From Polytrichum commune (Eukaryota > Streptophyta > Polytrichopsida > Polytrichales > Polytrichaceae): a stretch of 64,000 bases of DNA. The notes beneath the pieces are model-generated. The model had not been told where the DNA came from, made no database searches, and saw nothing but the letters and a program-made list of their open reading frames with translations. Location of the stretch: contig OX485805.1 in NCBI GenBank assembly GCA_950295325.1, positions 34,833,501-34,897,500 of the forward strand, given 5' to 3'. Made by a program: the position numbers and the translations under genes. Each line of letters opens with the position of its first letter. Within the stretch, counting starts at the first letter, position 1. Positions 8,866 to 46,123 of this stretch are shown here, in pieces.

Positions 8866-8872
8866 CTGAACT

Positions 8873-11835: not shown

Positions 11836-11837
11836 AT

Positions 11838-19102: not shown

Positions 19103-19129
19103 AACACTATATTAAACATTTCGGGACTT
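19103..19129 (+). repeat. left terminal inverted repeat of the giant transposon
   Basis: 27 bp, starting AACACTATATTAAACATT and ending TCGGGACTT, identical to the complement of 46097-46123. ATGT precedes it. Confidence 0.92.
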
Positions 19130-19159
19130 GGCGTCAATATGGGACTTCTGGAGTGTCCA

Positions 19160-19201
19160 TTGAGATCGCATTGGGAACGCATTGGGAACGCATTGGGAAC
19201 A
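19160..19201 (+). repeat. left subterminal repeats (GCATTGGGAAC, three copies)
   Basis: Three direct copies of GCATTGGGAAC start about 65 bp inside the left end. The core GGGAAC recurs in many copies, in the same inward orientation, inside the right end. Such subterminal repeats are typical transposase binding sites. Confidence 0.7.
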
Positions 19202-19537
19202 AATCCTATGTTGTGTAGCAGTGACCCCTAATGGACTCCCAGTTGATTGCAACACTACTTTGACCGGTTCAAATGAGTGGGTGAGTGGAGGCTACAGCCT
19301 TGTACTCGAAAGAAAAGAATTGGTAACCCATACACCAAGTTTGTAGAACAATTACTGTTTGAATTGAGATCTTTATTCCTGAAGCATATGTCGAATGCCT
19401 CATTCTTAGGCGTCTACATACATGTTTGGCTATATATATGTCCCCACCGATATGTGGCTAAAGGGGACGCATTATCAACTATAGTATTTAATACATGTTG
19501 TGGCTTCTACAGGTCGCTCAATTGTAGTCCTGCCTCG

Positions 19538-20337
19538 TCAAGCGATACGATTATTTCCACGGTCACCCAATCCAGCCCGCAAAAGTCGAACTGCCCTTGA
19601 ATTAGGGCCTTGAGATTCGATGAGTGAAATTTGGTAGTCCCGTGTAGCAGCGGGGTGCACGATGGCCAAAGTTCCGCATGGAGGTGTTGAAGCATCTGCG
19701 AGGGTGCACATACTGGTGTCAACGCCCTCCACATGGTTAATGGTGGAAGGGAGCTTCGTCATGGCGGGTTGAGGGGCATAAGTCTTCCCAAGTCCTGCCA
19801 ATCCAGCACGTAGAAGACGAACACCTCTTGAGTCAGGGCCTTGCGATTCGATTAGCGCAATTTGGTACTCGCGGGTAGGGGTGGGGCGCATAATGGATAA
19901 TGTATGGGCGGGTTGTGGTCCGTCATCCATTGGGGGGAGCATATTTAGGTCAACATCCTGCAGGCCGACATAGGCAAAAAACATTCTCCAACTTATTGCC
20001 CCACAAATACCACCAACATTCATATACATGCACATACATTCCACGCCAAATGTTGGAGATTAGATAGAGATTGAAAAGGAGATTTGCAAAATATTTATTT
20101 GGGTAAGAACATTCCCAGGTGAACAAAATGAGCTATATTTACCAGACTCTGTCCATCAGGGGTTGCTTCAGCGAGGGGTGACACACTTTGAGAGTTAGCG
20201 ACCTGGATAGCTTCTACGCCCACGTGGGTGAGTGAGAAGGGATGGCAGGCCAGTACTACGTTGTGTTCATGCCGCGGGGTGAGACACACGAATGCCGATC
20301 GCTTGGAAGTGGATGGTGTGTATCCAGCAGGAGGAAA
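19538..20337 (-). CDS. C-terminal exons with two copies of a 40-residue module
   Basis: Exon 20337-20143 (acceptor GTTCAG, donor GTAAAT) leads in frame to exon 19957-19538 (acceptor CTGCAG). The last exon contains the module TREYQIALIESQGPDSRGVR followed by LLRAGL, and about 75 residues later TRDYQISLIESQGPNSRAVR followed by LLRAGL, so a segment was duplicated within the gene. I do not recognise the module. The two exons may be the C-terminus of the HAD protein or a separate small gene, because the HAD exon ends in a stop at 20421. Confidence 0.5.
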
Positions 20338-23300
20338 CTGAACAAAGCATATAATACACAATGTTACATGCCATACAATTCATGAACCTTACATGCCCTA
20401 ACCTAAACCCTACATGCTAACTATCTTGGGACATCAGTTATAGGGTGCAAGTCGGGTCGATTGGAGTGCTTGTTGGCCATCATAAGTGACTCCCTGACTG
20501 GATCGTTATGCGGGACCGGCTGTTGCCCAAATCTATGTGTGATCACAAAATCGCGTACGTCGCTCATTGTCGAATTGAACATACGTTGGAAGTAGGGGAG
20601 AAAAACTGCTCTCATATCCGCAGTTGCCTGTTTGTTGGTGATGAAGGAATCGGGAAACAATACATTCCCGGGAGGATTACAAGCACCTTTGTAGGGGTTG
20701 TCATCCACAAGAACAGTGTTCTCAATAGTGGCAGTAACACGTCCGGAATCAAGAGATACAGGCGGCCACCAAAATGTTTTGTTTAAACTCTTGAAGAACA
20801 ATACTGATTCTGGCTTTAGGGGGTTCCTGATCTGATTGTCCCAGATGTCTTTGAATGTGATGCAATCCTCCTGGCCAAGAACTATTGCAGGTCTTGACAT
20901 CCCATTGAATAGAAACTCCACCACGAGGTCCACAGTGGACTTTTTCATAGATGACCATATGCAAACATAGAACATTTGGGTCATTCTCTCCCAAAACTGC
21001 TTGTAACCCAGTCTAGGTAGGACAGCTTTGGGACCGACAATCGCCGGACCCTTGTCTGGCGCACGATCTTGCACCATCCATGTGGGTAAAGCGGAACGGC
21101 CGCGAGGAATACAATGACAAAATATGCCATTCAAATCGAACACCAGAATGAACCTTCGGTCGGGTACAGCAGCTAGCGCCTGGCGACAGGAATCCATTGT
21201 CAACTTCTCCTGCTTTACTCGAATTACATATAATGTTGCAACTAATGAAAATTGTGGAACTTCATATATTCAAAAACTTACATTCATATATGCAATAGGT
21301 GCATATATTGATATGGGGGTTTATAATGAACTAAATATTAAAAGTTATTATGAACTGGGAAACCAATACCTCGAAAGTTATGGGATTGAATTCCCAGCGA
21401 TCCGATGGTCCTAATGAAGGGTCTTGAGGGTCCCTAGAAATAAGTCTTTTAGCACACGCTATTCCCATCTCCCTCGTGAAAACTTGAGAGATGTTCCTAT
21501 CGTACGTTGGGTAGTTGTCAGCGTAAACAAAAAGTTTATCATAAACAACGTGTGGGTTGAAGGGCGCATCCACAGTCGTTTGCGCATTTTGTCCACCCTG
21601 AACCCAAAACTACGCGGAGATGAATGTTTGGGACACAAATAAACCGGGTATATTGAAAAGAAAATCCAGTGGACCAAGTGAAATTTTATTGAGAAGGGGA
21701 AACGAAGCTTACACAAACTAAGTGCCATGAGAAGGGGAAACGATGCTTACACAAACTGGGAGAGCTGGCCGCACACGCAGCTCTGGGCAAGTGACCTCGG
21801 AACGGCTGGCGTGCATAGCCCGCCAAGCCTCAAATGGACGTTCGGCTATTTTTGTATTGTCAGGGGGAAAGTCGGGGAACCTGTCATCGCGTGGCCAACG
21901 TTCCACGACTTTCTTGACATGATGTGGGCCGACAGAAGATGAAGGCTCCGTTGGATCGACGACAGCGGGCTCCGTTGCATCAACGACAGGAGGCTCCTCA
22001 CAATGTGGAGCCTCGGGTTGGCAAGGGCCTGCAGAAGAGGAAGGCTCCGTTGGCTCCACGGTAGCAGTACAGTAACAAGGTGGTGATATTGGTTGTTGCA
22101 GGCCTGCAGATGATGACCCGGGCTCTGAATGTTCGATGACAGCCTGCTTCAGAGCAAGAGGTTTGATGGCAGCAATGTGGACCGCTGTGGGCGAAGGCGA
22201 CTTGACCACATCATCGTCACTACCTATGGGCAAGAGGGGTGAACGATCCCCTTTGTCCAAAGGGGTGACGACAAGCGTTGGACTTCGACATGTAGTGGCA
22301 ATGGGGGCTTGCATGGGGCCAACTATAAGTGAGGTGTCCTCTTCGGCTGCACCCGTTTGCGGGACTGCTACACATGGTGATCCTGGCCGTGTGAAATCAA
22401 CGATTTGCAAACCAGCCTGTGAATTGAACATGCATTGTTAATGACAGCCGTTGCAGACAATGTAATTGAATGTAAAATGTAAAACACATTTCATTGAATG
22501 TAAAATGTACATCTTCCAAGTACCCAGTACATGGTGAGTTTGGCTACAACTAAAATGTCCTAAAGGTTTTTAAGTCCAATGCTCTAGTCAGCCTTGGATT
22601 GCGATCTACAAACGGCTTCCTATTCTCCAAGTGGTTTGATTATGATGCGCGGCCTCCAACCTGGATCAAACATCCCGGCGGAGATTCAGTGACTAGCATG
22701 TTTAAAAACAATTGGAAAAGCGAGAATAGGTCAAGGATATTTACCTCATCTTCAACAGGCTGGGAATCATGGGAAGGCCCCTCCACGCATCCGGCATCTG
22801 CAGGTGAACTTTCCACTTCGTTCTTCTCGGCCGATTTCTCAGCAACCTCCGGTTGATCCACATGAGCTGGCTCGACTTGAGGAAGGACATCTTGGGGAGG
22901 GTCAGTACCAATGGGGGCAGAAACAACCTCCGCATTTGTTGGTACAGGGGCCGGAGTAGGAATTGGCGTGGGCACGGCTTGAGAGGGTGGCATGGCCTGG
23001 GCCATGGCATCCTTGAACAGGCTCGTTAGTAAGCCTGGCAAATTTTTATTCAAAATGCCCATCATGAGAGGTTCCAAAACAGCCGTCGTAAGTGGGGGCT
23101 CCACGGGCTTACCATGGCGGCGTTTATGCCTATCCTTAGTTGAGGACCGACTTCGTGAGCGAGAGGACTTCCTATGTGGAGTGTCCATGGCACCACTAGG
23201 ACCAACATCGGCAGTACTGGGTCTGAGGGGACTCTGTGGAATGTCCATGGCACCACTAGGACCAACTTCGGCGGTACTGGGTCTCTGGGGACTACGTGCA

Positions 23301-26300
23301 GCAGGCTGTGGAGGTTGGTAGGTGTCGGGAATAGAACGAGGGGACTCCAAAACCACATCGACATCTTCGACCTCCTCTTCGACATCCTGGGCCTCTTGGA
23401 TATCCTGATCCTCGTCAAGGGCATCCTGATCCTCTTCTTCGACATCCTGGTCCTCATCTTGGTGTTCTTCATCCTCCTGCTCCTCATCCTCCTGGTCCTC
23501 ATCGTCAGCCGGGTCTTGGTCATCGCGGTCTTCGTCATCGAAGTCAAGTTGCTTCGCTCGCAGCGGCGAAGCACCGAGATCGCAGGCAGTCGACATATGC
23601 TCTTCCAACGGAGTCAAACCGCCAGTGGCATCATCGTCCGAGTGCTGGGACGTGTGGGGGGATTCGCCATGGCTCTCGATGTCGGTATCCCGTTCACTTG
23701 GAGGCTCCACAGACTCATCATCTTCATCGTCAGGAAGATCTTCCACATCGGAGGGGTTTCGGTCAATGTCCATGGCCTCGATCGGTTCGCGATCTTCGAC
23801 ATCCTCCTGTGTAGCAACCATACAATGTCAACAACTATCTCATATAAAAGGGGAGTGAGAAAATGATGATTTTCATAAACACAAGTAATTCATTAGCAAT
23901 ACTTACCAAAAGCAAGGGTGGATCTGGGTTGAGGTCAGGGTGAATGTGGCCATCGTGGGCTTGATACTCATCTTCATCTTCGGCTTGTTCAGCAAAATCC
24001 TTCAGCTTAAGTACGCAAACACGTTGAATCAACGCGTCCAGAATATGCAAGAATGCCGAATCCATGTAGGAAAAGACGTTGTAATCGTGCATCTGGAAAA
24101 TCAATGAGGTTAGAAAAATGGAAGAGGGAAGAGGTGAAAGGGAACGAATTGAGATAGTTCAGATAGGTGGAACTCACCAACGCTGCAGCAACTGGTTTCA
24201 AGCCCCCAAATAGATTGAGAACCATGCCTCCGGCGGAGCCCATGTACTCCAAGAACTTAATATAGACCTCCATTCTGAGCTCCCCTCGATTCACTTCATA
24301 TGTCAACTCAGACCAATCCTTGGGTTTTACTTTGTATCGGCGCGAATCCGGGGCTAGCATTGGACATGCAATTACCTTCCACTTGGGAAATTTATCTGGG
24401 ACAATGAGGTGGTCGATGTAGAAGGCAGGGGTTTGCCTCTTTCCATCTATTTCTTTGGGGTCGGCTAATTCCTCTGCAGGACAAGGGAAATAGAACGACG
24501 GGACGATCACAAACGTATTGGGATGTCTGCGCATAAGCGACGACATGAATACGAGCGAGGCATCGTGGCTACGCAAGTCGGAGACAATCATCCAAGCTGG
24601 AACAGATTTCACCCCTGGTGTCCATTCCGGAGAGCACAAGTATTTAACCAAGGACTCCACAACTTCAGGAGGGATTGGTTTATCTACACATCCAGGGATG
24701 AACCTGAAGTCCAGAAACCCCGCGGCAATGATGTTTCCCTCAATCCACTCAACATCACTGGAATCTTGCTTGGGAATCACCAATCGTTTCTTAATGGCAT
24801 TATGCGACACCCACCGCGTGATCACTTGCCCTGTGCATTTGTTGAAATCTGTTTGGAGCCAGTCGCGAAGCAATCGGTCTAATGCCGGCTGTACCGGCAA
24901 GGACTTGTTGTTAGTTGCCATTTTCTTGTTCAGCCAATCTGAAGTCGCAACCTGGTAGAGCTTTACCCATTTCGGCTTTGTAATTCCATGCTCCCGTTTG
25001 AATTTTGTCCATACGTCGCGATCGAGGAACCCATGCCCCTCATCATCCTTCTTCCACACGCCAACTTTATTGGGATCCCGCCTATCCAACTCCTGCAGCA
25101 AGATATTCTTCCACTTGCGAAAATTGCACCATGACTTCAGTGTCACGACTTTGCTGTTCTTGCAAGTCCTGAGAGTGACACTACGAACGCCGTCCTCTCC
25201 CTTCCCTTCTAGAAGCCGTCTCGCTGCCAGGTGAAAGTCAGGCTTTGTGAGTCCTGACATGTTCTTGAACGTCTCCCTTGTAAGGGATTTAGTCACGAAA
25301 GGTTTCTCCTCGAAGGGTGTTCCTGCCTTGGACTTCTCGTGGCGAGCTCGCAATTTTTGCTGAGCCTCCACATGATCTTCCAGGTATGTGCGTCCTGGCT
25401 TGTCCGGGTTGATAAATAAACCCTTCTCGTGCGACACGAACACTTTCTTCCACAATCTTGATGTTTCCTCAGGGGCCATAATTAACGTGAGTTCCGCTTT
25501 AAGATCGTTATGCGTGATCCCTCTTGCGATTGCGGTGAATGATGCCTCCATACTGGTAGTGAAGTTCTGCACATCACGGATACAGGAGTGAGATTCATGA
25601 TGAACACAATGTGAAGGCTCACCACTTTCACTCGATCAAGTGAAAGTGGTGTGAGGCCATGGTCACCACTTGAGGTGACGGCTCACCACTTTCACTCGAT
25701 CGAGTGAAAGTGGTGTGAGGCCATGGTCACCACTTGAGGGAGCAGATGAATTAAGGGGAGCAGAGAGTAACATACCTTCCAAGCCAATGCTTTCTCAGGG
25801 TCCTGTGTGGCCTCAGAGGCGTTCGCACGTTGCTTTTCGGGCTTGTTCAACTTCACCCATACCCTGCGACAATACAGAATTTGTGTAGTCCATGTTGGTG
25901 TGAACTTGTTGAACGAGTTCGAATTGTTCAATGTATATGAAAGTCTGACGGTCATGCTGGGGTCCTCTGTCCACACAATTGTGCAGGGCCACACCTTCAA
26001 CTTTTCCTTGAGCTTAGGATCCGTATCTCTATAAGCAATTATTTCCGTAGATGCGGCTACAGTATGTTGCCCATTGATTATGGCGAATTGCATGTTCTTG
26101 ATGTCATCCCTTCTCGCCATGTCTCACCTTTCTTAAACTTCAGCATCAAACACAGATTGTGCTGAGACCATGCAGGTGGGGTTTGGATGAGGTAGTTCTT
26201 CATGAGGTTCACCCCACTTGGATCCAGCGGCCGCGTAACATGATAAGCTTTTGCGCCCTTCATTTGCTTGATGGGTACACGGAATATCGATTCTGCGCCG

Positions 26301-27190
26301 AATGGATAAATGTGCCCAAAAAGTTGCAAAAACTTCTTCCTATCCAGAGCAGCTTCCTCAAGGCTGGGTTGTTGACCTTGCGATATAATTCGACCCTTCT
26401 CCGCTTGAGTCAAGACCAGTGGGGTGTCCTCATGCATAACATCGTCTTGCTTCATTTTCTTTTGCTTTGGTTTCTTCTCGGGTGACAATGCCCTCTTTCC
26501 TTTCTTTTTCCTTCCACTCCCGGCATCTCCAACATCCCTCTCCGTGTTCTGAGAATCTGGTGCAACGTGGGGCTCCACCTCGTGAGGCTTCTCTCTCTCC
26601 GTCTCCTTTGATGCAGTTCGCTCTTCAGTTTGTTTCCCCTTCTTTGCCTTCGATTTTTGTCCAATAGAGCTGCCACCTTCGTCGGCCTTGGACTTCAATA
26701 TACCCTTGGCTTGCTTCTTCTTTTGCTGCCTTGATTCTTCACGTGTAGCTGCATCTCTACTGTTGATGTCTTCCAATGTCTCCAACACAAAGTTTATGGC
26801 TCTTTTGGTTATTCCAGATGACATCACCTTCTCTATCTCTTCCTTCTCCTTTGAAGGGAGTGAGGCTACGGACTCATAAAATGGCACCAAGAGAAATGTA
26901 TGCTTCTTGCAATCTATAGATAAAATTCTCTCTTCCACCCCCTCCATAACCGAAACCTCTAGCCTATCCCTCGCTCCCACATGAGCGATGGTAATTGGAT
27001 TTCCAGGGTTCGGAATCCAACTATTGTTTACCTTGTACGTGAATATAAGGTCGTACCCTGAAGATTGGTTTTTCTTGTTAATAGCCAGTGACCACTTCTG
27101 CAAATGGGAGTCCCTAATTACCCATTGAGGACCATTTGGCCCTGCTTGTCTGGATCCAACTAGATCTGTCCATAAAACAACTTTGTCCAT
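19538..27190 (-). CDS. multi-exon gene: ParB/Srx-like + MTase-like + acidic linker + FCP1-like HAD
   Basis: On the minus strand I can chain exons at 27195-about 26085, 26120-25776, 25566-24178, 24092-23907, 23806-22745, 22416-21751, 21597-21370, 21209-20421, 20337-20143 and 19957-19538. Introns have GT/AG ends and every junction I could resolve is phase 0, so long frames join cleanly. Two joins are uncertain: an apparent frame change near 26100, and the end of the HAD exon, which reads into TAG at 20421 unless a weak donor is used. The modules are described separately. The first ATG I can defend is at 27190, but more 5' exons are likely. The gene lies wholly inside the giant transposon and faces its left end. 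Confidence 0.65.
20421..21597 (-). CDS. FCP1/NIF-like HAD phosphatase domain exons
   Basis: Exon 21597-21370 and exon 21209-20421 encode a domain with the order of HAD motifs seen in FCP1/NLI-interacting phosphatases: FILVFDLNGIF (motif I), VCIWSSMKK (motif II), a lysine-bearing KPESVLFFKSLNKTFWW segment (motif III) and NTVLVDDNPYKGA (motif IV). FCP1-type enzymes remove phosphate from serines of the RNA polymerase II tail and related substrates. Motif I reads DLNG where active enzymes have DxDxT/V. The nucleophile Asp is kept but the general-acid Asp is Asn, so activity is doubtful and a binding role is possible. It is an unusual domain for a DNA transposon. Confidence 0.72.
21752..23806 (-). 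CDS. acidic, Ser/Pro-rich linker exons
   Basis: Exons 23806-22745 and 22416-21751 encode about 576 low-complexity residues. The first part is strongly acidic (long runs of Asp/Glu with Gln), then comes a duplicated RPSTAEVGPSGAMD/RPSTADVGPSGAMD segment, an Arg/Ser basic patch (KSSRSRSRSSTKDRHKRRHG) that could be a nuclear localisation signal, and Pro/Val-rich sequence. The second exon is rich in EPSSSAG-type repeats. The linker is probably disordered, joining the N-terminal domains to the HAD domain. The acidic region on one strand explains several long shadow frames on the other. Confidence 0.6.
23907..25566 (-). CDS. degenerate DNA-methyltransferase-like domain exons
   Basis: Exon 25566-24178 and exon 24092-23907 are open throughout (463 and 62 codons) and join in phase 0 across a GTGAGT donor. 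Near the join the protein reads RMEVYIKFLEYMG, then GGMVLNLFGGLKPVAAALMH, then YNVFSYMDSAFLHILDALI before QRV. This resembles the end of beta-class DNA methyltransferases, where a lysine/arginine-Pro/Met-Glu helix precedes the SAM-binding VLDLFGGSG motif and a MELD-type acidic residue follows. The expected catalytic DPPY-type motif upstream is absent; the best positional match is IVSDLRSHDA. It may be a non-catalytic relative. This is motif reading only. Confidence 0.45.
25567..25775 (-). repeat. intron with two 66-bp units each holding a 30-bp palindrome
   Basis: Two tandem units carry ACCACTTTCACTCGA followed by its reverse complement. The copy at 25685-25714 is perfect over 30 bp; the copy at about 25621-25650 has one mismatch (CAAG for CGAG). 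They lie inside an intron (donor GTATGT at 25775, acceptor TGCAG at 25567) and belong to the palindrome family at 27253-27614 and 39161-39893. Confidence 0.85.
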
Positions 27191-27195: not shown

Positions 27196-27204
27196 CTGCA
27201 AAGT

Positions 27205-27772
27205 CCCCCAATAAGTTAGGAAACCACATAACTCCACAATCCATCCAGCCAGCACTTTCACTCGATCGAGTGAAAGTGGGGCTTGGCCATCAAGCAAGCC
27301 AGCCAGCCATCTACTGGCCACTTTCACTCGATCGAGTGAAAGTGGGGCTTGGCCATCAAGCAAGCCAGACAGCCATCTCTAGCCAGCACTTTCACTCGAT
27401 CGAGTGAAAGTGGGGCTTGGCCATCAAGCAAGCCAGCCAGCCATCTACTGGCCACTTTCACTCGATCGAGTGAAAGTGGGGCTTGGCCATCAAGCAAGCC
27501 AGACAGCCATCTCCAGCCAGCACTTTCACTCGATCGAGTGAAAGTGGGGCTTGGCCATCAAGCAAGCCAGACAGCCATCTCCAGCCAGCACTTTCACTCG
27601 ATCGAGTGAAAGTGTGGCTTGTCTTGAAACCATGTTGGTTGTCCGTACAGTTCCAGGTGTGAACACGGATATTTCCAGCCTCAATGTAAAGAAACACTTC
27701 GACCATAAGCAATGCATGTAAGATTATGAATGTTTGGTATATTTCTTGACATTTAATGCAAGCTATGAAATT
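27205..27772 (-). repeat. intron-borne palindrome array, six units of 66-68 bp
   Basis: The 26-bp perfect palindrome CACTTTCACTCGA + complement occurs at 27253, 27319, 27387, 27453, 27521 and 27589. The intervening 40-42 bp are nearly identical (GGGCTTGGCCATCAAGCAAG, then GCCAGCCAGCCATCT-like sequence), and two unit types alternate. The array lies between a GTAATT donor at 27774 and a TTTGCAG acceptor at 27196. Frames read through it in both directions are artefacts. Confidence 0.92.
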
Positions 27773-27774
27773 AC

Positions 27775-28113
27775 CTGATTTGTGTGAACAATCTGGTTGT
27801 GGATTTGCAACTCAGGCTCCAATTGCACGAACTCCGCGTTGGTGTCTACTGTTAGATAGTTATAATCAACAATTAGAGCACTGCTGGATAATTTACATGT
27901 GATTTGTGAGGTGTCTACATAAATGAAGATGGATGCAATTTCATATTCGGGGAAGGGTTTGGCCAATCTGAATATCTTGTGCCTCTGGATTTAGGGGCCT
28001 GGAGTGAAAAAAACGAACCGGATTGTTTATGGATCAGGTTGGAAAGACCTCAAAAAGTGAACAACGTGCTTATTCTGAAAATTCAATATGCCGAGATCCT
28101 TGAGAATAAGTTT
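27775..28113 (-). other. possible upstream exon(s) of the ParB/HAD gene
   Basis: Frame 27984-27775 on the minus strand encodes protein-like sequence (EYEIASIFIYVDTSQITCKL) and ends at a good GTAATT donor. A shorter open stretch lies at about 28113-28024. The 27984-27775 frame does not join the 27195 exon in the right phase, so either a small exon is missing or one of the splice choices is wrong. Another donor (GTATGT) near 28406 follows an open frame that begins about 28520. Confidence 0.3.
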
Positions 28114-28636
28114 AGGATGCTGTGTGTGAAGATTGCAGGTGCATAACAAACAATGAATGTAGAACACAAAAGTTGAGTAGGTTCGAGGCTCCAGGCGCAT
28201 TCAGTGATGAATAGACATCACTGAATAGTTGAGCAATTGCGTTGAATGAATAGACATCAATGAATAGTTGATCAATGAATAGTTGAGCATGTCCATAGAA
28301 ATTTGACTAATATATTTGAACAAACAAATAGAGAATGACAAACATCAAGCAAAATGCATACACACTGAAATGAATAAAAACAGCATGCTCTTTGTGAACA
28401 TACCAGGTGGCTCCCAGGTGAGGAGGGCAGTTTAGGAAGATTGAGAATGTTGAGGGACCAGCGAAAAGGGAGATGATGCAGAAAGTTTGTGGAAAAGGGA
28501 AGATTCAGATTCTTGGGCAATGTGCATACTAGAGGCAGAGCTCAACCAGATCTTAGTAAAGCCAGTTGCATACTAGAGGAGGAGATCAACCACATTTGAG
28601 TGAAGCAAGGTGCATGCCAGAATTGAGTGAAGCAAT

Positions 28637-28835
28637 GTGCATACTAGAGCAAGAGATAAACCAGATTTGAAGCTATCAATGTGCATACTAGAGCAAGAGA
28701 TAAACCAAGTTTGAAGCTATCAATATGCAGACTAGAGCAAGAGATAAACCAAGTTTGAAACTATCAATGTGCATACTAGAGCAAGAGATAAACCAAGTTT
28801 GAAACTATCAATGTGCATACTAGAGCAAGAGATGA
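28637..28835. repeat. tandem repeat, 44-bp period, about 4.5 copies
   Basis: Units start GTGCATACTAGAGCAAGAGA at 28637, 28681, 28725 (variant), 28769 and 28813. More degenerate units with GCATACTAGAG precede them from about 28520. Confidence 0.85.
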
Positions 28836-29235
28836 AGAAGCAAGGTGCATAGACAAAGCCAGTAGCAGAATGTTGGGGAGCCAGGGGCGAGGAGGGAGGA
28901 GAAAGGAGGAGAAAACAATCTGAAAGGCATGAGCGGGGGAGGTCATTCTGGACACTGCTTGGGAACGGCCACGTCCCTTCGCGATCTCCCGATGGTCAGG
29001 ATTCCGCCGTCAAAGATGGACGGTCCAGATCCGAGACACCTTCCCATGAAGTAGGTACTTGTGAGTAGGTTAGGGTGGTGTAGTCTCACCCGTTCTCATT
29101 AAGGAGGGTGTGGGTTAATAGGTAGAGTACTTCCTACTAATTGTAGAGGGTACTGATTGCAGTGTATGTTGTTAGTTGGTGATTTATGATTCCATTACCA
29201 TACCAAATGGTCTTTCATCCAAATTTCATAATTCC

Positions 29236-29830: not shown

Positions 29831-29844
29831 TTATACTAAAATAA

Positions 29845-30004: not shown

Positions 30005-30035
<31 letters not shown>

Positions 30036-36336: not shown

Positions 36337-36560
36337 AAAACCCTCAATAGCACAGCGATCATCACAATTTTGTGACTTACCATTGAAAACGTCTGTCATT
36401 CTGAAATGGAACTCAAATTAGGATGTTTATTCTATAGCAGATTAGTTGATAGCACACCACTTTCACAAATTATTCACATTCAACTAATTGAATGTAATTA
36501 CGTGTAAATAACCTTAACTAATCTCAATAAATAAGAAAGTATGCTTCACATATTGCATGT
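36337..36560 (+). repeat. diverged relative of one arm of the Mutator-like foldback
   Basis: The order AAAACCCTCA, TAGCAC, GTGACTT, CCATTG, GTC.TTGTCATTCT-like, then CTTTCACAAA and CAACTAATTGAATGTAATTA parallels 5212-5410 of the foldback element at 4890-6000. Only one arm is evident. It is an older copy nested in the giant transposon. Confidence 0.55.
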
Positions 36561-37035
36561 AAAACAATTAACACTAGCAAATTGATGTTTATCTATAAAT
36601 CAGACCATCACAACCGGGTCATCTGTAACCCGCGTTTGGCAGTCATGGATTACGATTTAGCAACGAAAACCACAAAAAATCAAAATTGAAAGTAATACCC
36701 CTGTGGAAAATAGTGGTTGCTCGCACCTCACTACAAGGAAATGGGTGTATAATTGACAAAAATGTGACACTAAAATGTCCGAAGTGACAAAATCAGCTCA
36801 AAGCTATGAGTTTTTGTCAATTCGGACATTATTCAAAATTTGTGTCAATTTTTTGTCATCAGATTTATATATTTCACGTTTAACTTATTCCCTTCACCTG
36901 AGCATGTGTCTCATATTTATTAACAACAAAAGGTGTTACAAAAGGTTTTTAATTATTGTAATTACTAGTATAAGTAATTAATATAATTAATGTATTTACT
37001 ATAATTAATGTAATAACTAATTTAATTAATTAATG

Positions 37036-37355
37036 TAAATACTGAAATTACCAATTTAAGTAAATACTGAAATTACCCTTTTGAGTAAATACTGAAATTA
37101 CCAATTTAAGTAAATGGGGAAATTACCAATTTAAGTAAATACTGAAATTACCAATTTAACTAAATACTGAAATTTGTTAATTTAAGTAAATATTGAAATT
37201 TTCTAATTTAGGTAAATACTGAAATTTGCTAATTTAAGTAAATATTGAAAATTTCTAATTTAGGTAAATACTGAAATTTGCTAATTTAAGTAAATACTGA
37301 AATTTGCTATTTTCAGTAAATACTGAAATTTGCTATTTTCAGTAAAATACTGAAA
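37036..37355 (+). repeat. 25-bp tandem repeat inside the CACTA element
   Basis: TAAATACTGAAATTACCAAT-type units start at 37036, 37061, 37086, 37111, 37136 and 37161, then continue at about 25-26 bp with TTGCTAATTT variants to about 37355. Confidence 0.88.
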
Positions 37356-37588
37356 TTATTGTAATTAATGTAGTTAAAATAATTACAATAATTACTGTAA
37401 TAATGTTTAGGAGTATTTTTGTAAATTGTTTTTAATACAAATACAATACGTACTAATTAAAAACAGTAAATACATTAATTCTATGCTTGTTTTTACTTTC
37501 ACTAATTAAAAAATATATATACATAAGTTTATAAGTCTTATGGCTTCTTCATACAAAACTCTTACATACTTGGCCTGTATCATGTAAT

Positions 37589-37767
37589 GAGCGGTGGCTT
37601 AGTGGCTAAGGCCTTCACACTATAGCCAAGAGGTTCAAGGTTCGATCCCCTTGACCCCTCACCCTTTGTCCATTAGCCTAGGTTAGGTGATGTGGCCCTT
37701 CGCCCTTAGACCTATGTGAGTAGGCTCCGAATGCGAGGGTGGATTACTAATTTAGGATTTTTTTACT
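37589..37767 (+). mobile_element. tRNA-derived SINE-like sequence
   Basis: An A-box (TGGCTTAGTGG at 37595-37605) and a B-box (GGTTCGATCC at 37639-37648) stand 33 bp apart, as in RNA polymerase III promoters. The 5' part folds roughly like a tRNA, with GAGCGGT against ACCCCTC as acceptor arms with one mismatch. The T-stem is imperfect and about 90 bp of unrelated sequence ending in a T-run follow, so this is a SINE and not a working tRNA gene. I could not find a clear target duplication. Confidence 0.6.
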
Positions 37768-38774
37768 AGTATAACTTGGACATTAAAGCACATCACCATG
37801 GGTAAATGACGAGGTAAAGAGAATCCAACATGGCAAGGGGGCCGGAGTAAATGGAATCCTACGTGTATAATTATCCCAGATGACAAAGAAATTGACAGAA
37901 CTCTGTTAATTGTATGACCGAATCAAGGTGCCCTATATGACACCCAAATTAACAGAATTTCGTCACATTTTTGTCAAATAGGTCATATAAACTTTTGTAG
38001 TGCCTATATCCCCATTTTTTTAACACACTGAGTGAACCCAGAGATATTATTGTGTTGTGACATGGCCCGAGCTCGTTGAATTGGGTGAACCCAAAATTAT
38101 GGGCCAAACCTTGGGTCACTGAATTGGCCTACCCTCTAGAAATGTTAACCATCGGGATCGCCACAACATTTATAGAGGTGTTAACAGCTAACAATTATTA
38201 TAAAAATATTATTATTTTGAACCCTATAAAAATCTTAACATTTATAAAGCTAACAAATAAACAACAAAATCACATTATATGTAGGCAAGCTTGGACCAAG
38301 TGCCGCAAACTTAATTGTGATTTTAGTCCCCTTCGTCAAATGTTACGATATTGGGGGGTGTTCAATAATTCCCTTTTTGCTTGGGAACATTGTACGCGCC
38401 TCAATAGCAGGGTATGATGCCCAAGTGTGATGGCAGTGGTGGGCCGAGGGTACCAATGGATAGGAATTACCAATTCAGGCGTGTTTTCATCCCATCAATC
38501 CAACTTGGATCCAAAGGCGTACCAGCGGGTAGTACGCGCTCATAGTGGTGATGCCCAAGAGTGGGCGATGTGCTAAGTATCATTACAGGATTGGGGGTGG
38601 ACCGGATTGGCAAAATTTCCCACGTTCACAATTGCATGATGTGCATGTAAATACCCACCAAAAGGCATCAAAAGCCGTCCTTCCGCCGGAGCTGTGACGG
38701 CCTAAAACGACAGGGAGGGAACCTTCAAATTTGTATTAGGGCACTATTCTCCCACCAAATCTGCTACACCCGTC

Positions 38775-38781
38775 TATATAA
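38775..38781 (+). promoter_or_regulatory. TATA box, probable promoter of the DUF7869 gene
   Basis: TATATAA in the context CGTCTATATAAGCCGG lies upstream of the plus-strand DUF7869 gene with no other gene between. The first coding ATG I accept is 1.26 kb downstream, so a long or spliced leader containing the palindrome array is implied. Confidence 0.5.
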
Positions 38782-38900
38782 GCCGGCAACATGCACACTC
38801 GCACCCTCTTTTGTCGCCCTCTGCCAGGGAGCACAGCACCACAACCTTCTTGTTGCTATCCCATCCCTGGATCCATAAACAAGGTTCGGTCCTACACATA

Positions 38901-39075
38901 TACCACACCTGCTCGAAGGGGTGTTGTAGCATATGTTGTTCCATGTGTTGTTCCATGTGCAGGGAGCATTGCAATGGCGGTAATACCACACCTGCTCGAA
39001 GGGGTGTTGTTCCATGTGTTGTTCCATGTGCAGGTCCATGTGCAGGTCCATGTGCAGGGAGCATTGCAGTGGCGG
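38901..39075 (+). repeat. 83-bp tandem duplication in the leader region
   Basis: TACCACACCTGCTCGAAGGG starts at 38901 and again at 38984. Each is followed by TTGTTCCATGTG and CAGG repeats and by GGGAGCATTGCA. Confidence 0.8.
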
Positions 39076-39160
39076 TAGTTTTCCAGGGCCTCTAATCATC
39101 CCTCTATACCGTACAGTACGGACGTGTAGCCAAAGCCTAGAAGCCAGAGCCAACCCAAGG

Positions 39161-39545
39161 GGTTTCACTCGATAGAGTGAAACCTCAAGGTCCATAAACT
39201 TAGCCAGAGCCAGCCCAAGGGGTTTCACTCGATAGAGTGAAACCTCAAGGTCCATAAACTTAGCCAGAGCCAGCCCAAGGGGTTTCACTCGATAGAGTGA
39301 AACCTCAAGGGCCATAAACTTAGCCAGAGCCAGCCCAAGGGGTTTCACTCGATAGAGTGAAACCTCAAGGTCCATAAACTTAGCCAGAGCCAGCCCAAGG
39401 GGTTTCACTCGATAGAGTGAAACCTCAAGGGCCATAAACTTAGCCAGAGTGAAACCTCCAGGGTTTCACTTGATCGAGTGAAACCCCATGGGCTGGCTAT
39501 GGCTAAGTTTATGGCCCTTGAGGTTTCACTCTATCGAGTGAAACC
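39161..39545. repeat. palindrome array, five 60-bp direct units plus two inverted copies
   Basis: GGTTTCACTCGATAGAGTGA(AACC) occurs at 39161, 39221, 39281, 39341 and 39401 in 60-bp units. At 39462-39485 and 39522-39545 the unit continues in the opposite orientation (TTGATCGAG and TCTATCGAG centres), so the array can fold on itself. It is the same palindrome family as the arrays at 25.6 and 27.3 kb but with GG/CC flanks in place of CAC/GTG. Confidence 0.92.
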
Positions 39546-39646
39546 CCTTGGGCTGGCCATTTTACTTACCTTTTTACTTACCTTTTTACTTCCCCTTTAC
39601 TTACCCAGAGCCGTAACACCACTTAATTATCAGCCAGCCCTTGAAG

Positions 39647-39893
39647 TTTCACTCGATCGAGTGAAATCTCAAGGGCACTGGCGTCTTCCAGCAGATGGCT
39701 CTAGGGTAGGCTTTGTGATATTCAAAATTGCAAATGAATGTCAGTACACTACATAAAAGCAGTCTGTATCATTACTACAAACCATATAGTATTGCGAAGT
39801 TATTTAGAGCCCATATATTAGGAAAGGATTTCATTGCAACATGTGCTATGTGAATATAGTGCCAGCCCAATTAGCTCTCACTCGATCGAGTGA
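39647..39893. repeat. two further solo palindromes of the same family
   Basis: TTTCACTCGATCGAGTGAAA at 39647-39666 is perfect. TCACTCGATCGAGTGA at 39878-39893 keeps the core. Both are upstream of the first coding exon of the DUF7869 gene. Confidence 0.88.
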
Positions 39894-40041
39894 AAGTTCA
39901 TTGGCAGGCTGCTTGTGCTGGCAGCCAACATAGTGCGAGTGCAAGCTCTAATATGATTAAATAGCAGATTGTATGTGAAGCTATATGAAGGCCAAGTTGT
40001 AGCCCTGACTGCGCAAGTGTTTTTGTGCAAATTTGCGGAGA

Positions 40042-43000
40042 ATGGATGCGGAATCATCTACTTCAGAGGAGGTGGTTTTCTAAACTTAGATGTTTAACGT
40101 TGTATGTTGGAATATGTTTTATTAATGATAAGTGTGATGTGCAGGGGTCATCCCTTTCGGACGCAATATTCTCGGAAGATGAAACTGTTCCAGTTGAGGA
40201 TATTGACCCCAATTGCAGTGGACTTCATAGGGATGATTGGGTGAACAAACCTGTTATGCTTGTGAACGAACGTGGACAGAATATGGCAAAAGGAATTTGC
40301 CGTAATGTAAACCCAATTGACTGCGTGGAAGACAAATGTTTGGGACCTGATCACGTTGGTGTCCTCATAATGGAGCCTATTGATGGCATGATGGACATGG
40401 GGGCCATGTTTGCTTTGAGGGCCTGGCCAATTTCTCGTGTTTTTCACGATGGATGCACTCTGGCACATCACATCCTAGTTAGTGGCCAGAGATTGCGGGC
40501 ACAAACTAAGATGCTGGAGAAGCGAAGGAAGGAAGGGAAGAGGGCGTATGATACATCCCGGATATCAGAGCATCGTAAGCCAACAAAAAAATCCCAAATA
40601 CTGACCAATGCAAGCATACAACAACTATCTGCAATTTTGTGTTGTGATCGCGAGTGCCTCAGATTCTTTCCTAGAGATGAGGCATTCGCTCTTCGAACTG
40701 AATTTTATGATTGCTCCACAAGGATGAGGCATGCAAAACGTCTTGAGGTCCACGGACAAATACATCCACTTCCGGGGGCGTGTACGAATGTCGTAACACT
40801 AAGTGGACGTGATATTTGCCTCATCGCATGGAGGCACATATTTGTAATATCAAAAACCGCCAGGGTTGTCTATTGTGTCGTGACGGAGGGTAATCCCGGC
40901 ATAATGTCGTGCCATCACGACACGTATCCGTCACGACATTATGCCGGATGCTGTCTTTATCCTGACGGACTTGAATTTTACCGATTTTTTTGTGTAATTA
41001 CATTAACCCAATTCAGACACGTAGGATTTACAATGTCCACGTGTGATGACATGTCAGCAAAGTAAAGGTAAAGTGGGGAAAAATTTACTAGAGCCCGTCC
41101 GCCCCCCCGTCCGCCCCTGTTCCCGACCCCGTCCGCTCCGTTCCCAACCCCGTACGCCCCGTTCCCCCCCGTCCGCCCCTGTTCCCGACCCCGTCCGCTC
41201 CGTTCCCAACCCCGTACGCCCCGTTCCCCCCCGTCCGCCCCTGTTCCCGACCCCGTCCGCTCCGTTCCCAACCCCGTACGCCCCGTTCCCCCCCCCGTCC
41301 GCGCCCCGTCCCCCCCCGTCCGCCCCTCCGTCCGCTCCCCCGTCCGCTCCCCCGTCCGCCTTTTGTTTTTTTTGTTTTTTTTTCCCCTTCCCCGTCCGCC
41401 CCATTTTTAAAAAAAAAATTCCCCCCCCCCTCCGTCCGCTCCCGTTCCCAACCCCGTCCGCCCCGTTCCCCCCCGTCCGCGCCCTGTTCCCCCCCGTCCG
41501 CCCCTCCGTCCGCTCCCCCGTCCGCCCCAGTTTTTTTTTTTTTTTTTCCCCCCCCCCCCCCCTCCCTTCCCCGTCCGCCCCATTTAAAAAAAAAATCCCC
41601 CCCCCCGGTCCGCGCCCCGTTCCCCCCCCCGTCCGCGCCCCGTTCCCCCCCGTCCGCCCCTCCGTCCGCTCCCCCGTCCGCCCCAGTTTTTTTTTTTTCC
41701 CCCCCCCCTTCCCCGTCCGCCCCATTTTAAAAAAAAAAAAAATTCCCCCCCCTCCGTCCGCTCCCGTTCCCCCCTGTCCGCCCCGTTCCCCCCCGTCCGC
41801 CCCCGTTCCCAACCCCGTCCGCCCCGTTCCCCCCCGTCCGCCCCTCCGTCCGCTCCCCCGTCCGCCCCAGTTTTTTTTTTTTTTTTTTTTTTTTTCTCCC
41901 TTCCCCGTCCGCCCCATTTAAAAAAAAAATCCCCCCCCCTCCGTCCGCTCCCAATCCCCCCCGTCCGCCCCGTTCCCCCCCGTCCGCGCCCTGTTCCCCC
42001 CCGTCCGCGCCCCGTTCCCCCCCCGTCCGCGCCCCGTTCCCCCCCGTCCGCCCCTCCGTCCGCTCCCCCGTCCGCCCCTCCGTCCGCTCCCCCGTCCGCC
42101 CCAGTTTTTTTTTCCCCCCCCCCTTCCCCGTCCGCCCCATTTAAAAAAAAAAAAATTTCCCCCCCCCTGTCCGCGCCCCGTTCCCCCCCGTCCGCCCCTC
42201 CGTCCGCTCCCGTTCCCCCCCGTCCGCCCCGTTCCCAACCCCGTCTGCCCCGTTCCCCCCCGTCCGCGCCCCGTTCCCCCCCCCCCGTCCGCCCCTCCGT
42301 CCGCTCCCCCGTCCGCCCCAATTTTCCCCCCCCCCCCTTCCCCGTCCGCCCCATTTAAAAAAAAAAAAAAAAAATTCCCCCCCCTCCGTCCGCCCCCGTT
42401 CCCGACCCCGTCCGCTCCGTTCCCCCCCCCGTTCCCCCCGTCCGCCCCCGTTCCCGACTCCGTCCGCCCCCGTTCCCGACTCCGTCCGCCCCCGTTCCCG
42501 ACTCCGTCCGCTCCGTTCCCGACTCCGTCCGCTCCGTTCCCGACTCCGTCCGCTCCGTTCCCCCCCCCCGTCCGCTCCGTTCCCGCCCCCGTTCCCGACC
42601 CCGTTCCCGACCCCGTCCGCTCCGTTCCCCGCCCCCCCCCACCCCCGTCCGCCCCACCCTCGTCCCCCGTCCGCCCCCACACCCTCCTTAGTCATTTTTT
42701 ACTACTTTGATTTTAACAAAATGGTAAACAAAATGGCAAAATGATTTACCTGGCGCTAGGCATATCCACGACCACGTCGGCGTTTTCTGCCACATAGGAC
42801 GCCACCTTGGCAAGAAGGTAAGTATTTTACCCACCCTAGTCCGTTCCCCCTATGTTGACCCTACGTGGACCCTATTGTGTCGTGACGGAGGGGTCCGTCA
42901 CGACACGACACGACATGACGGCACGACACCGTCATGACGTCGCGATAGACAACCCTGAAAACCGCGTTCTACAGAAATCGACAAGAATTCAATTGTGGGG

Positions 43001-45325
43001 TGCGACCACGAGACCATGGAAACTTGAACACCAAACGGTATCGTGTGTCCACACAGCAAGCCACTGCCACTCTTTCCAACCTCTTAGAGGACAAAGCGGA
43101 CATGATGCCCCATAAATCCCGCACTTTGCCTAACGGCACTCGAGTAGTGGAGATGGTTTTGCCTCGCGGAACAAAATGGAAGAAATTTTTGGAGACAATC
43201 AACCAGGTTAGTATGCTCATGATGTTCCATTTATTCCGTTTTCAATGTTAGTCTGAGCCTCACAAATCAGAACACCTGGATTGAGGCAATGTCTAAATGT
43301 TGCATGTGGTATGATTTTCAGGTGAATGAAAAATGTGGGTTGCAACCAATTTCTCTTTCTACTCTGAGCCAAATAAGACAGAATTATTTTAAGCACTACG
43401 TGACAAAAAGAGCAGGGGATAATTTTGCTCGCTGTGGGAAATGCGATTCACTTATGGCTATTATTCAACAACATGTTAAAGGTTCCGCCGCACACACCGG
43501 GTTTTCGAAGCAGTTGGAGAAGCACCAGGCACAGCAGGAATCCGCTCGTAATGCTTACCGCTGTATGAGAGCGTTGTCTATTGAGCATCCCCGCAAGGTT
43601 TTGACCATCATTCACGACAAAATGGACCATGGCAAAACTGCATCTCCATGCTTTGCTAACAAGAACAAAGACACTGATATGTTCACGAAACTACCACTTT
43701 CAGTGACAGGCATGATGGCTCATGGCCATGGAGATGAGAGATATGCTCATTATGCATTGGATTTGTATCCTGGTGATTGCAACCATACTGTGGGCTCATT
43801 TGCGAGGCTTCTTCGCGATTTGGAACAGCCCCCGGCTTCATCATCTCGCATGCTATTCCATGGTGCGGGTCGGTCACCGCTTTATCGTGCTGTTCTTCAT
43901 GGGAGTGATGTATGTTTGTCAGGATTACGACCTCCACCCAGTGAGCCTATTCCAGCTGTCTTGCTTCCACCCGTTTTGCATGTTCAACTCGATAATTGTT
44001 GGAAGGACAACAAGTGTAGATATGTGAAGGCATTTTGGTCCATGCTCACGGCCAAAGGTATATTCACGGAGGTCCACGTGTCTTACCTTTTAGTTGGTCA
44101 TACACATGATGACATTGATGCTTCATTTGGTAGATGGAGTATGGACTTGCGCGAACATGATTACCCCACTATCCCCTTGCTCATGAAATCATACATGGAC
44201 ATGGAGAAGGTCCCTATCATCCCACATATGATAGAGGAGCTTCCAGATTGGAGGGCTTTTGTTAGTGAGTACATTCCTGATGGCCAAGACAAACTCATTG
44301 GCCATACGAAAGCCCAACAATTCAAATTTGTTGTACGGGATGATGGTTGGCCCGTCATGCATTACAAGGTGCTTAGTACGCATGATGAATGGTTGCCCAA
44401 GGATGGCATATTGATGTGGAAATCCAACATAAAGGGGGAGCCAGTTTTCCCACCTGGGGAACCTTACCCTGCTAAACCTCGAGAAATGGCAAAACTGGAC
44501 GATGTTCTTGTTGGGTTGCAAGGGTTTGTTGACTACTGGCAATCTATATGTGACCATGACATGACCGGAGCATATAGGGGCTCACAAACACATCTTTTAC
44601 AATACTGGACTGGGGTACTGGAGGCATTACGGGCACCCCTCACAAATGTGTACACTGCGGGATTGGCACTCCAAGAGGGATTCTGGCCATCCTCCCGAAT
44701 CGAATTGGACGCACATCCTTTCATGAATACTGGTGAACTTCGTGAGGAGCACCAACCAGATGACCATTATGTGGGCCCCTCTAACCTTCGACCTGCACCT
44801 GCTTTCCGCATTGCCGACAACGTGCATGAGGGGCATTTCCTCATTCTTCGACCCCAAGATCAAGACATTGATAGACCCATTTGGGTGTGCCGAGCTTTGT
44901 GTCCACCAAACTTGAACGTCACTGGGGACCATCCCCGTCAGATTCTGGTACAGTGGTTCACTCCCACTTCAACTGCTAGAGACATAACAAGGAAATACCA
45001 TGGTTGGGACTCCAACAAGAACTTCAAGTGGAAAGCCGATTCGAAATATTCCATCCCCGACTGGCAACCAATTGACTGCATCTTGGCAGCATGGCCTCTA
45101 CCTGCACATGAAGATGTTGAGCCCCTTAAGATTACTATTCCACCAGAGCAGATTGAATTTGCCAAAGACAACCTTCGCCGTTGTTCTGAGCAAGAGCGCG
45201 GAGGGATGGCGGTTGAGGAGGACGTTGATCTGCCGAGTGCGCGACAAGTAGGTCGTGGACGTGGAACTGGAGGTCGTGGCCGTGCAACTGGTAGACGGGG
45301 AGCTCGGGGCAACCCTTCCTCGTAA
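40042..45325 (+). CDS. DUF7869-type protein, candidate transposase; split by a hAT insertion
   Basis: Proposed exons are 40042-40071, 40145-40860 continuing at 42966-43206, and 43322-45325. The 40861-42965 block is a hAT element plus one target-duplication copy, and the frame is open on both sides of it. Introns are phase 0. Without the insertion the frame would encode 996 residues. The N-terminal half has a Cys-bearing CCDRECLRFF and CLIAWRHIF region typical of proteins carrying DUF7869. The C-terminal half has FARCGKCDSL, IIHDKMDHGK, HVQLDNCWKDNKCRYVKAF and VGHTHDDIDASFGRWS. The spaced acidic residues look like an RNase H-fold DDE/D nuclease core. The protein ends in an RG-rich tail. It lies near the right end of the giant transposon and is my best guess for its transposase. 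As it stands the gene is disrupted. Confidence 0.72.
40861..42957. mobile_element. non-autonomous hAT element, 2097 bp, with 8-bp target duplication
   Basis: Ends are CAGGGTTGTCTATTG and, inwards from the right, CAGGGTTGTCTATCG. AAAACCGC flanks both sides (40853-40860 and 42958-42965). CAGGG-type termini with 8-bp duplications are diagnostic of hAT elements. GTCGTGACGG motifs repeat within about 100 bp of both ends, and a 16-bp-arm hairpin lies at 40896-40947. No transposase is encoded; the interior is minisatellite. It sits in an exon of the DUF7869 gene. Confidence 0.93.
41086..42690 (+). repeat. CCGTCCGCCCC minisatellite with poly-T/poly-A blocks
   Basis: Short CCGTCCGCCCC and CCGTTCCC units are organised into higher-order repeats of roughly 150-250 bp. 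Each has a block CCCCAG, T-run, C-run, CCCATTT, A-run, TTCCCC (seen near 41360, 41525, 41685, 41865, 42105 and 42340). The plus strand is almost pure pyrimidine outside the A-runs. Long Arg/Gly/Thr and Pro/Ser/Arg frames on both strands are artefacts of the repeat. Confidence 0.92.
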
Positions 45326-45780
45326 TGCGAGACTGGAAAACCCACATCGTATTCGTCACACAATGATTCATGATTAGATGTGATTTCCTTGACAATGTGA
45401 GACACCACATCAAATACTCCGGTGATTGGTACTAATTTTTTTGGGGTGGTTCCTCGATGGGAGACCATCATGGCTCCTCTCGGACATGTGGGTGCAATTT
45501 TTGTTGATTTCAACACTATGACCAGCTAAATGGAACCCCATTGTGGGCACGGTATACCCGTGCAACTCTTAATGAAAACCACCAGCATTATAGAGGGCGG
45601 GTTCATTTATCTAATGTGAAGTGTTGTAATTTGAACTTTGAAGTATGTAATGCAAGGTCTGTCCTTTGTATTTGGATGTAGTTGGCATGACTTGTATTAA
45701 TGAGCCCTCGGTCTGTCACTGTGCACACCACAAACACCCCTTCTATCACGTTTGCAAACCACACTACCCTGGCGCGACCA
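45326..45780. other. 3' flank of the DUF7869 gene, no further gene
   Basis: No coding region is supported between the DUF7869 stop and the right subterminal repeats. Frames here are shadows or short. Confidence 0.45.
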
Positions 45781-45786
45781 CACACC

Positions 45787-46060
45787 GTTCCCACGTAGCC
45801 ACAAAATGTGTTCTTGTTCCCCCGTTCCACAGTGCGCACATGCGTTCCCATAGAGCGTTCCCAACGTTCCCCTAGAGAGTTCCCACATTCCCATATAGAG
45901 TTCCCACGTTCCCGTAGAGTTTTTATGCGTTCGCTCTAACGTTCCCATACATAGGTTCCCACGTGCGCATCTGGCATTCACATGGTCTAACTTCATTGTT
46001 CCCACGTTCCCACAAGCTAGTTGCATGTTCCTGGGAGCAATAAATATGTTCCCATGTCCC
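45787..46060 (-). repeat. right subterminal repeats (GTTCCC on plus, GGGAAC inwards)
   Basis: At least 15 GTTCCC hexamers, often as GTTCCCACGTTCCC, crowd the last 340 bp before the right end. Read inwards they give GGGAAC, the core of the left subterminal repeats. This matches the layout of clustered transposase binding sites. Confidence 0.75.
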
Positions 46061-46096
46061 CAAAATGTAAAAAAATCTTCACTTTGGGACTCCCAA

Positions 46097-46123
46097 AAGT
46101 CCCGAAATGTTTAATATAGTGTT
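46097..46123 (-). repeat. right terminal inverted repeat of the giant transposon
   Basis: Exact complement of 19103-19129. It is followed by ATGT (46124-46127), the second target duplication. Confidence 0.92.

Follow-up and report, generated by a model that had tools for sequence, protein, structure and literature searches.

Sola DNA transposons, according to the sections of the published surveys that treat them, encode a DDD transposase and produce 4-bp target site duplications (TSDs); their terminal inverted repeats (TIRs) measure 11 to 1124 bp, most are 2 to 9 kb in size with some above 15 kb, and they are noted in Physcomitrella and are not common in flowering plants (PMC10741241). Sola1 has been tabulated for Physcomitrella and Capsicum (PMC9033089). 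The closest described giant element, Sola1-1_Ec32 of Ectocarpus, is a 21.5-kb Sola-1 element with a divergent ParB/methyltransferase (MTase) gene, the MTase being predicted to form N4-methylcytosine or N6-methyladenine, and the same account names ectopic recombination as the presumed brake on giant DNA transposons (PMC12477816). Here, we describe a giant DNA transposon of 27,021 bp in the moss Polytrichum commune, at positions 19103-46123 of the window, which is the whole stretch of 64,000 nucleotides that was analysed (assembly GCA_950295325.1, contig OX485805.1, positions 34,833,501 to 34,897,500). It carries a gene for a DUF7869 protein and, on the opposite strand, a multidomain accessory gene. 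We consider it likely that the element represents a family of giant cut-and-paste transposons, with Sola-1 as the most probable type, in which the DUF7869 protein is the transposase and the accessory protein reads palindromes. To our knowledge, few intact giant DNA transposons are known in land plants.

The limits of the insertion are defined by its TIRs, its TSD ATGT and an empty site, the latter found with a query in which both flanks were fused and one ATGT was retained:

19103..19129, plus strand: left TIR, AACACTATATTAAACATTTCGGGACTT, perfect over 27 bp against the right end
46097..46123, minus strand: right TIR, perfect 27-bp inverse of the left TIR
19099..19102, no strand: TSD ATGT, left copy
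46124..46127, no strand: TSD ATGT, right copy
11837..12457, plus strand: paralogous empty site, 85.5% identical to the joined flanks, with a single ATGT
19158..19200, plus strand: left subterminal repeats, CATTGGGAACG, with the GGGAAC motif facing inward (tandem repeat search, end enrichment)
45843..45919, minus strand: right subterminal repeats, built around GTTCCC (the final 500 bp contain 13 GTTCCC)

The perfect inverted ends, the subterminal repeats and the paralogous empty site had been proposed in a first-pass annotation made from the sequence alone, and each was found again. We use the letters A to D, X, Y and Z for element families, the window element belonging to family A, and C1 to C6 for contigs; in pairwise comparisons, family A is represented by its copy on contig C5. 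The GGGAAC/GTTCCC repeats face inward in the window, A, B and D. GGGAAC was counted 3 times in the first 500 bp of the A copy, 0 times in the last 500 bp and 7 times in the remainder, and the corresponding counts of GTTCCC were 0, 14 and 0.

The ends were then searched for in the host genome (408 Mb; seven numbered contigs seen, 42 to 78 Mb each). The plastid of the host carries rbcL-trnR(CCG)-accD, a gene order that speaks against an angiosperm and agrees with a bryophyte. The first 300 bp of the element gave 29 matches, 21 of them at 89 to 100% identity, and the last 300 bp gave 42. The TIR pattern, with at most 3 mismatches, was matched 133 times (71 + 62), and its reversed control 0 times. 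Pairing of the ends yielded 15 clean copies including that in the window, 22,227 to 31,502 bp long, a count that leaves out six left ends of family A, which lie at two rearranged loci (C6:4.96-4.98 Mb and C2:23.19-23.29 Mb). An exact and site-specific 4-bp TSD was found in 15/15 clean copies; therefore, the TSD is 4 bp long and the TIR starts with AACACTAT. The first-pass annotation had left the choice between ATGT and a TG duplication with a 28-bp TIR; the former stood, and the latter is excluded by the flanks of the 15 copies. Over 450 bp inward from the left end, the window copy and the 14 others were 98.9 to 100% identical to one another and 94.9 to 96.2% identical to the six ends set aside. 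The high identity among the clean copies indicates that family A spread recently.

The genes travel with the ends. The DUF7869 region was found in all 15 clean copies (14 whole, 1 partial), as were the MTase-like exon (continuous and stop-free in 10, containing stops in 4, fragmented in 1) and the HAD/NIF exon (stop-free in 14 of the 15, of which one is partial). Thus, what would speak for one giant transposon with an accessory gene and a DUF7869 gene, namely multiple copies alike in their ends, in the 4-bp length of their TSDs and in their internal genes, was present in 15 cases out of 15, and the ends, which might have occurred only as separate miniature inverted-repeat elements, bracket the genes in every one of these copies. 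Some loci depart from this pattern. In the two rearranged loci (C2:23193592-23289424 and C6:4957769-4979121), opposed left ends have AAAG or CCAT in common as their outer flank, which looks like the outcome of inverted duplication after insertion. A possible older family A copy lies at C4:27786891-27814000, and two TIR matches at C1:53390548-53393042, just 2.5 kb apart, are possibly a short non-autonomous relative.

The gene layout was derived from comparison among copies. The DUF7869 gene and an insertion within it were located as follows:

40139..40860, plus strand: DUF7869 gene, conserved N-terminal coding part (start approximate)
40861..42957, no strand: nested hAT-like insertion of 2,097 bp, 8-bp TSD AAAACCGC, 13-bp TIR
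42966..43206, plus strand: DUF7869 gene, second coding part
43207..43321, plus strand: DUF7869 intron, GT...AG
43322..45325, plus strand: DUF7869 main exon, presumed catalytic region (Pfam E 9.2e-40)

Both the DUF7869 gene and the nested hAT had been named in the first-pass annotation, the former now with a strong Pfam match and the latter with its TSD and TIR. Genome-wide, 1,490 first-look candidates yielded 150 scored DUF7869 matches, each exceeding the Pfam cut-off. The motifs HVQLDN and GHTHDDID were invariant in an alignment of four DUF7869 sequences, HDKMD being a further conserved motif, and because of the conservation and these invariant acidic residues we infer that DUF7869 is the transposase. 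A TAG is present in the DUF7869 open reading frame (ORF) of most copies, in the C5 copy at residue 4, where it is intronic, and further stops occur in the ORF of some copies. No relatives were found when viral contigs were scanned with the DUF7869 ORF, and none in 14 control genomes, of which those named are prokaryotes, so that this last result carries little weight.

The accessory gene lies on the minus strand, with its start codon at 27188-27190, and encodes from its start an N-terminal domain, a ParB/Srx-like motif, an MTase-like exon, an acidic stretch and a HAD/NIF exon:

25811..27190, minus strand: exon with the N-terminal domain and the ParB/Srx-like motif (INGQHT), labelled by motif only
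24044..25575, minus strand: MTase-like exon, motif I-like NLFGG, no [DNS]PP[YFW] (motif label, alignment)
22640..23827, minus strand: acidic low-complexity open frame (ORF list)
21331..21609, minus strand: short conserved coding stretch adjoining the HAD exon (tblastn, 62-98% in A, B, C and D)
20424..21215, minus strand: HAD/NIF-type (CTD-phosphatase-like) coding exon (Pfam NIF E 1.6e-9)

We infer that these exons encode one protein, in which the acidic frame is probably a linker; acidic frames are also found between the corresponding exons in X and Y. By its Pfam match (38 bits in the window and 60 bits in X, with a cut-off of 21.8), the HAD exon is of the NIF-type HAD phosphatase kind, with phosphatase activity predicted. 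The hallmark of N4/N6 DNA methyltransferases is motif IV, [DNS]PP[YFW]. In the MTase-like part a motif I-like GG is present, and the PP of motif IV is absent at the aligned place in the window, A, B, C and X and, as judged by eye, in Y. Since the catalytic PP motif is lacking, methylation by this protein is doubtful. A second group of NIF/HAD frames, mostly of 261 amino acids (aa), occurs at 57 or more places in the genome, with about 33% identity to that of the element and near-equal scores; the frame of this group at C5:31805579-31806271 is part of the giant element of family X.

The window copy itself is disrupted. The hAT-like insertion splits its DUF7869 coding stretch and is missing from the corresponding place in the C5 copy of family A and in B, C and D. 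The window ParB-like exon shifts frame near 26.08-26.12 kb; this exon is in a single frame in the C5 copy, B and D, the C5 copy having its own stop there. The split DUF7869 gene together with the frame change suggests that the window copy is probably not autonomous at present. The core size of the family is about 22 kb, and the window copy is longer, the hAT-like insertion being among its differences. The hAT-like insertion is rich in CCCGTCCG/CGTTCCC tandem arrays, which resemble the GTTCCC subterminal motif of the host element.

Related giant elements form further families in the same genome. Family B (C4:27835849-27860007, TSD CAAA) and family D (C6:38871691-38895379, TSD TAAG) have the same right TIR as A, and they are about 83% identical to the window in DUF7869 and 57 to 76% identical in the accessory parts. 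The N-terminal part of DUF7869 is 65 to 73% identical at the aa level in B, C and D and 38% identical in X. The X element (C5:31804078-31820295; 16,218 bp; TSD TTTA; likewise starting with AACACTATATT) keeps the gene order and the divergent orientation at 24 to 50% aa identity. The Y element (C3:7181164-7206209; 25,046 bp; TSD CTTA) keeps the gene layout as well, with 24 to 28% aa identity in its ParB-like core. For family C, on contig C2, the left end was not found on tracing. In total, a 4-bp TSD was found in 19 of the 20 traced elements of families A, B, C, D, X and Y, the miss being C, and the 19 TSDs were 80% A+T. What these data show are TIRs, 4-bp TSDs, a conserved gene pair and dispersal as whole units. 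Two other DUF7869 loci were seen. A second DUF7869 gene (51% identity) adjoins family C at about C2:2972323-2975304 (3197-6178 of the turned 29-kb piece), and a more divergent DUF7869 family, Z, lies at C3:1629001-1649000 amid Ty3-type retrotransposon pieces. Element ends were not found for Z (C3:1.63 Mb).

The genes of the element are under purifying selection between families. The ratio of nonsynonymous to synonymous substitution rates (dN/dS) for DUF7869 was 0.085 between the window and B, with a range of 0.085 to 0.16, and 0.07 to 0.30 for its N-terminal part. For HAD it was 0.23 between the window and B and 0.22 to 0.23 between families; for the window against the C5 copy it reached 1.13, based on very few changes. 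For the MTase-like part it was 0.12 (B-D) and 0.29 (window versus the C5 copy), and for the ParB-like part 0.12 (B-D). Between B and D, dS was 0.08 for DUF7869 versus 0.27 to 0.40 for the MTase-like and ParB-like parts, and this inequality among genes gives a hint of recombination between lineages.

Repeated palindromes, clustered near a gene, were found in 8/8 DUF7869 loci read. In the window, they form three clusters:

25626..25709, no strand: palindrome cluster 1, 2 sites matching TTTCACTCGATCGAGTGAAA with at most 3 mismatches, located between the ParB-like exon and the MTase-like exon
27256..27611, no strand: palindrome cluster 2, 6 sites, directly upstream of the accessory start at 27190
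39163..39895, no strand: palindrome cluster 3, with 9 sites that lie upstream of the DUF7869 gene

The palindromes of A, B and D are centred on CTCGATCGAG, their common core, and occupy the same three placements: between the ParB-like and MTase-like exons, before the accessory start and before the DUF7869 gene. Family C has a variant, TCCTCTCGNNCGAGAGGA, with 13 sites in these three placements (14098-14178, 15882-17150 and 23028-23387 of the locus). Other palindromes are found in X, where TTTACGAACGNNCGTTCGTAAA has 30 sites at up to 3 mismatches, and in Y, where CCCACGGGTGNNCACCCGTGGG has 21 sites. The DUF7869 gene beside C has its own palindrome, TTTGGGTCGNNCGACCCAAA, with 10 sites immediately upstream, and that of Z, GTGAGGCANNTGCCTCAC, occurs at 8 sites next to a frame on the minus strand in which a DGQH motif was recognised by eye. 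The letters of the palindrome thus differ from group to group, and the gene-proximal placement is conserved. The two clusters before the gene starts hold 15/17 sites in the window, 11/14 in A, 26/30 in B, 17/24 in D, 21/30 in X and 12/21 in Y, with the remaining sites mostly among the exons and introns of the accessory gene. None of the 17 window sites lies inside a modelled exon; X and Y each have at least one site within the long open frame of the acidic stretch. The commonest palindrome occurred 14 to 22 times per element, compared with at most once in 20 shuffles (window, A, B, D, X and Y), and no A-type site was found in the 36,979 bp of the window outside the element. Exact sites in the whole genome numbered 236 for the A type, 2,909 for the X type and 644 for the Y type (0, 0 and 0 for the reversed controls), and among the A-type sites listed (50 distinct of 236), 50/50 were in three known A loci. 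The arrays beside both genes, which the first-pass annotation does not mention, may be the most informative part of the element. Between the two pre-start clusters of the window lies an 11.5-kb spacer (27620-39160). In B, X and Y, the corresponding spacer measures about 9, 3 and 12 kb, respectively. The window spacer had no DNA match to B, C or D beyond short repeats, and Rfam gave 0 matches on the whole element, spacer included.

In the transposon reading that we prefer, the DUF7869 protein would act as a DDE/DDD transposase, cutting at the TIR and the subterminal repeats and inserting with a 4-bp stagger. The accessory protein would recognise the palindrome arrays that its own element carries beside the two gene starts; by binding them, it could control expression or mark or assemble the element. 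More tentatively, the elements could form a superfamily with its own ParB-parS-like recognition, in which the accessory protein binds the palindromes and both change together by group. Such private self-recognition might serve autoregulation, protection from silencing or, in transposition, the assembly of the 22-kb unit. The retention of the three placements in family C with changed outer letters makes this ParB-parS-like reading more probable. As in bacterial ParB-parS, a protein with a ParB-like motif is accompanied by clustered palindromes, and we take the A-type half sites TTTCAC/GTGAAA to resemble the halves of parS. Unlike in parS, the A-type half sites are 8 bp apart, and the palindromes of C, X and Y are unlike parS; moreover, no ParA was seen, and the likeness to ParB is at the motif level only.

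Several observations weigh against the preferred reading. As for the ends, the left TIR of B and of D differs from their own right TIR at several bases, the TIR of Y (ATGGGGATATTAACTAAAATGAG, about 31 bp, imperfect) is unlike that of A, and GGGAAC subterminal repeats were not found in X by motif counts at the ends. As for the presumed transposase, no PDB relatives of DUF7869 were found by sequence or profile, family Z reads IQASN, by eye, where the others have QLDN/QMDN, and AlphaFold models from single window sequences of the DUF7869 core and the MTase-like region were unusable (pLDDT, the predicted local distance difference test, 36 and 41). As for the accessory protein, searches of Pfam, NCBIfam, PHROGs and PDB gave no profile match for ParB/Srx, just the GQH motif, and no profile support for an MTase; apart from DUF7869 and NIF, what these searches returned was at chance level, and both labels are motif readings only. 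The dS of the MTase-like and ParB-like parts is saturated between A and the other families, leaving the ratio undefined. The palindromes could also be read by the DUF7869 protein instead of the accessory protein. Of the ParB/MTase-like/HAD gene named in the first-pass annotation, therefore, the HAD part is backed by Pfam, and the other two names lack such backing.

The transposon reading includes an assignment to Sola that was made by likeness to published descriptions, and the element is probably Sola-1-like without being proven Sola. The TSD is 4 bp in 15/15 A copies and in B, D, X and Y, the TIR lengths (27 bp in the window, about 31 bp and imperfect in Y) are in the Sola range; the sizes of 16.2 to 31.5 kb would suit only the large minority of Sola elements. 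It is doubtful that the elements are instead a new DNA transposon superfamily, with DUF7869 as a lineage of its own that shares the 4-bp TSD and ParB-like genes with Sola by chance. Pfam names the domain only DUF7869, a literature search on that name found nothing, and the gene set, the 4-bp TSD and the gene-proximal palindromes are coherent over several families of one genome. Yet, as far as it is described, Sola1-1_Ec32 matches in giant size and in having a transposase gene and an opposite-strand gene that joins ParB-like and DNA methyltransferase domains (PMC12477816), the 4-bp TSD is that of Sola (PMC10741241), and Sola, including Sola1, is reported from a moss, Physcomitrella (PMC9033089, PMC10741241). 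In contrast to Sola1-1_Ec32, the elements here have a HAD domain and palindrome arrays, which the parts of the account describing that element do not mention, and their MTase-like part lacks the canonical motif IV. The portions of the literature retrieved on giant plant transposons, ParB and Sola contained no HAD module and no gene-proximal palindromes. The first-pass annotation had judged the system undescribed, which is too strong as a statement on the kind of element in view of the published giant Sola1 member with its ParB/MTase gene (PMC12477816) and the 4-bp TSD of Sola (PMC10741241), as far as these sources describe them.

That the palindrome arrays are functionless satellite-like tandem expansions is unlikely: many of the palindromes do lie within short tandem repeats, but A, B and D have one palindrome core despite their different repeat periods, and in C, X and Y other palindromes again stand ahead of gene starts. 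We regard it as highly improbable that DUF7869 is mere cargo of giant passengers moved by another enzyme in trans. No recognised transposase domain was found by Pfam in the 10 ORFs scanned, and the DUF7869 gene of the window is interrupted. However, DUF7869 is present in every clean copy, the partial one included, and in every other family read, its dN/dS is low (0.085-0.16), and the interruption can postdate insertion. A CACTA element or a chance composite of unrelated insertions has practically no chance of being correct: the ends do hold CACTA from their third base (AACACTA), but all 15 copies have a TSD of 4 bp, not 3, and carry the same genes between the same ends, and there is an empty site.

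The other superfamilies considered fit no better. CACTA (EnSpm) elements have a 3-bp TSD and CACTA/G at the extreme end, hAT and PIF-Harbinger TSDs are 8 bp and 3 bp, respectively, Helitrons have neither TIR nor TSD, and the giant KDZ and EnSpm elements have TSD lengths that differ from 4 bp. CACTA was rejected for its TSD length and for the position of the motif, and Helitron for the presence of both TIR and TSD here. A 4-bp TSD of varied sequence does not fit hAT, Mutator, PIF-Harbinger or Tc1, the TSD being described as 7 to 12 bp in Mutator and as TA in Tc1 (PMC10741241). Ginger, with its Gypsy-type integrase, was rejected because no integrase was found with Pfam in the 10 ORFs scanned. 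Algae and fungi, as described, likewise have giant DNA transposons with accessory genes, the KDZ and EnSpm elements; these differ in belonging to other transposase families, no such domain being found with Pfam in the same 10 ORFs (PMC12477816). The misfit to hAT, Mutator-like, CACTA, PIF/Harbinger and Helitron elements given in the first-pass annotation thus held, with Sola omitted from its list.

One plant genome here contains many recently moved giant copies together with several deep families of a fixed two-gene layout. This opens to test the role of DUF7869, the reason why ParB/MTase-like genes accompany giant transposons in algae and plants, and the possible evolution of operator systems private to each group. 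The palindromes are direct candidate binding targets of each group's proteins. Beside the element, long inverted and direct repeats occupy 4890-6000 and 7568-14535 of the window, with the empty-site paralogue among them, which suggests a local duplication.

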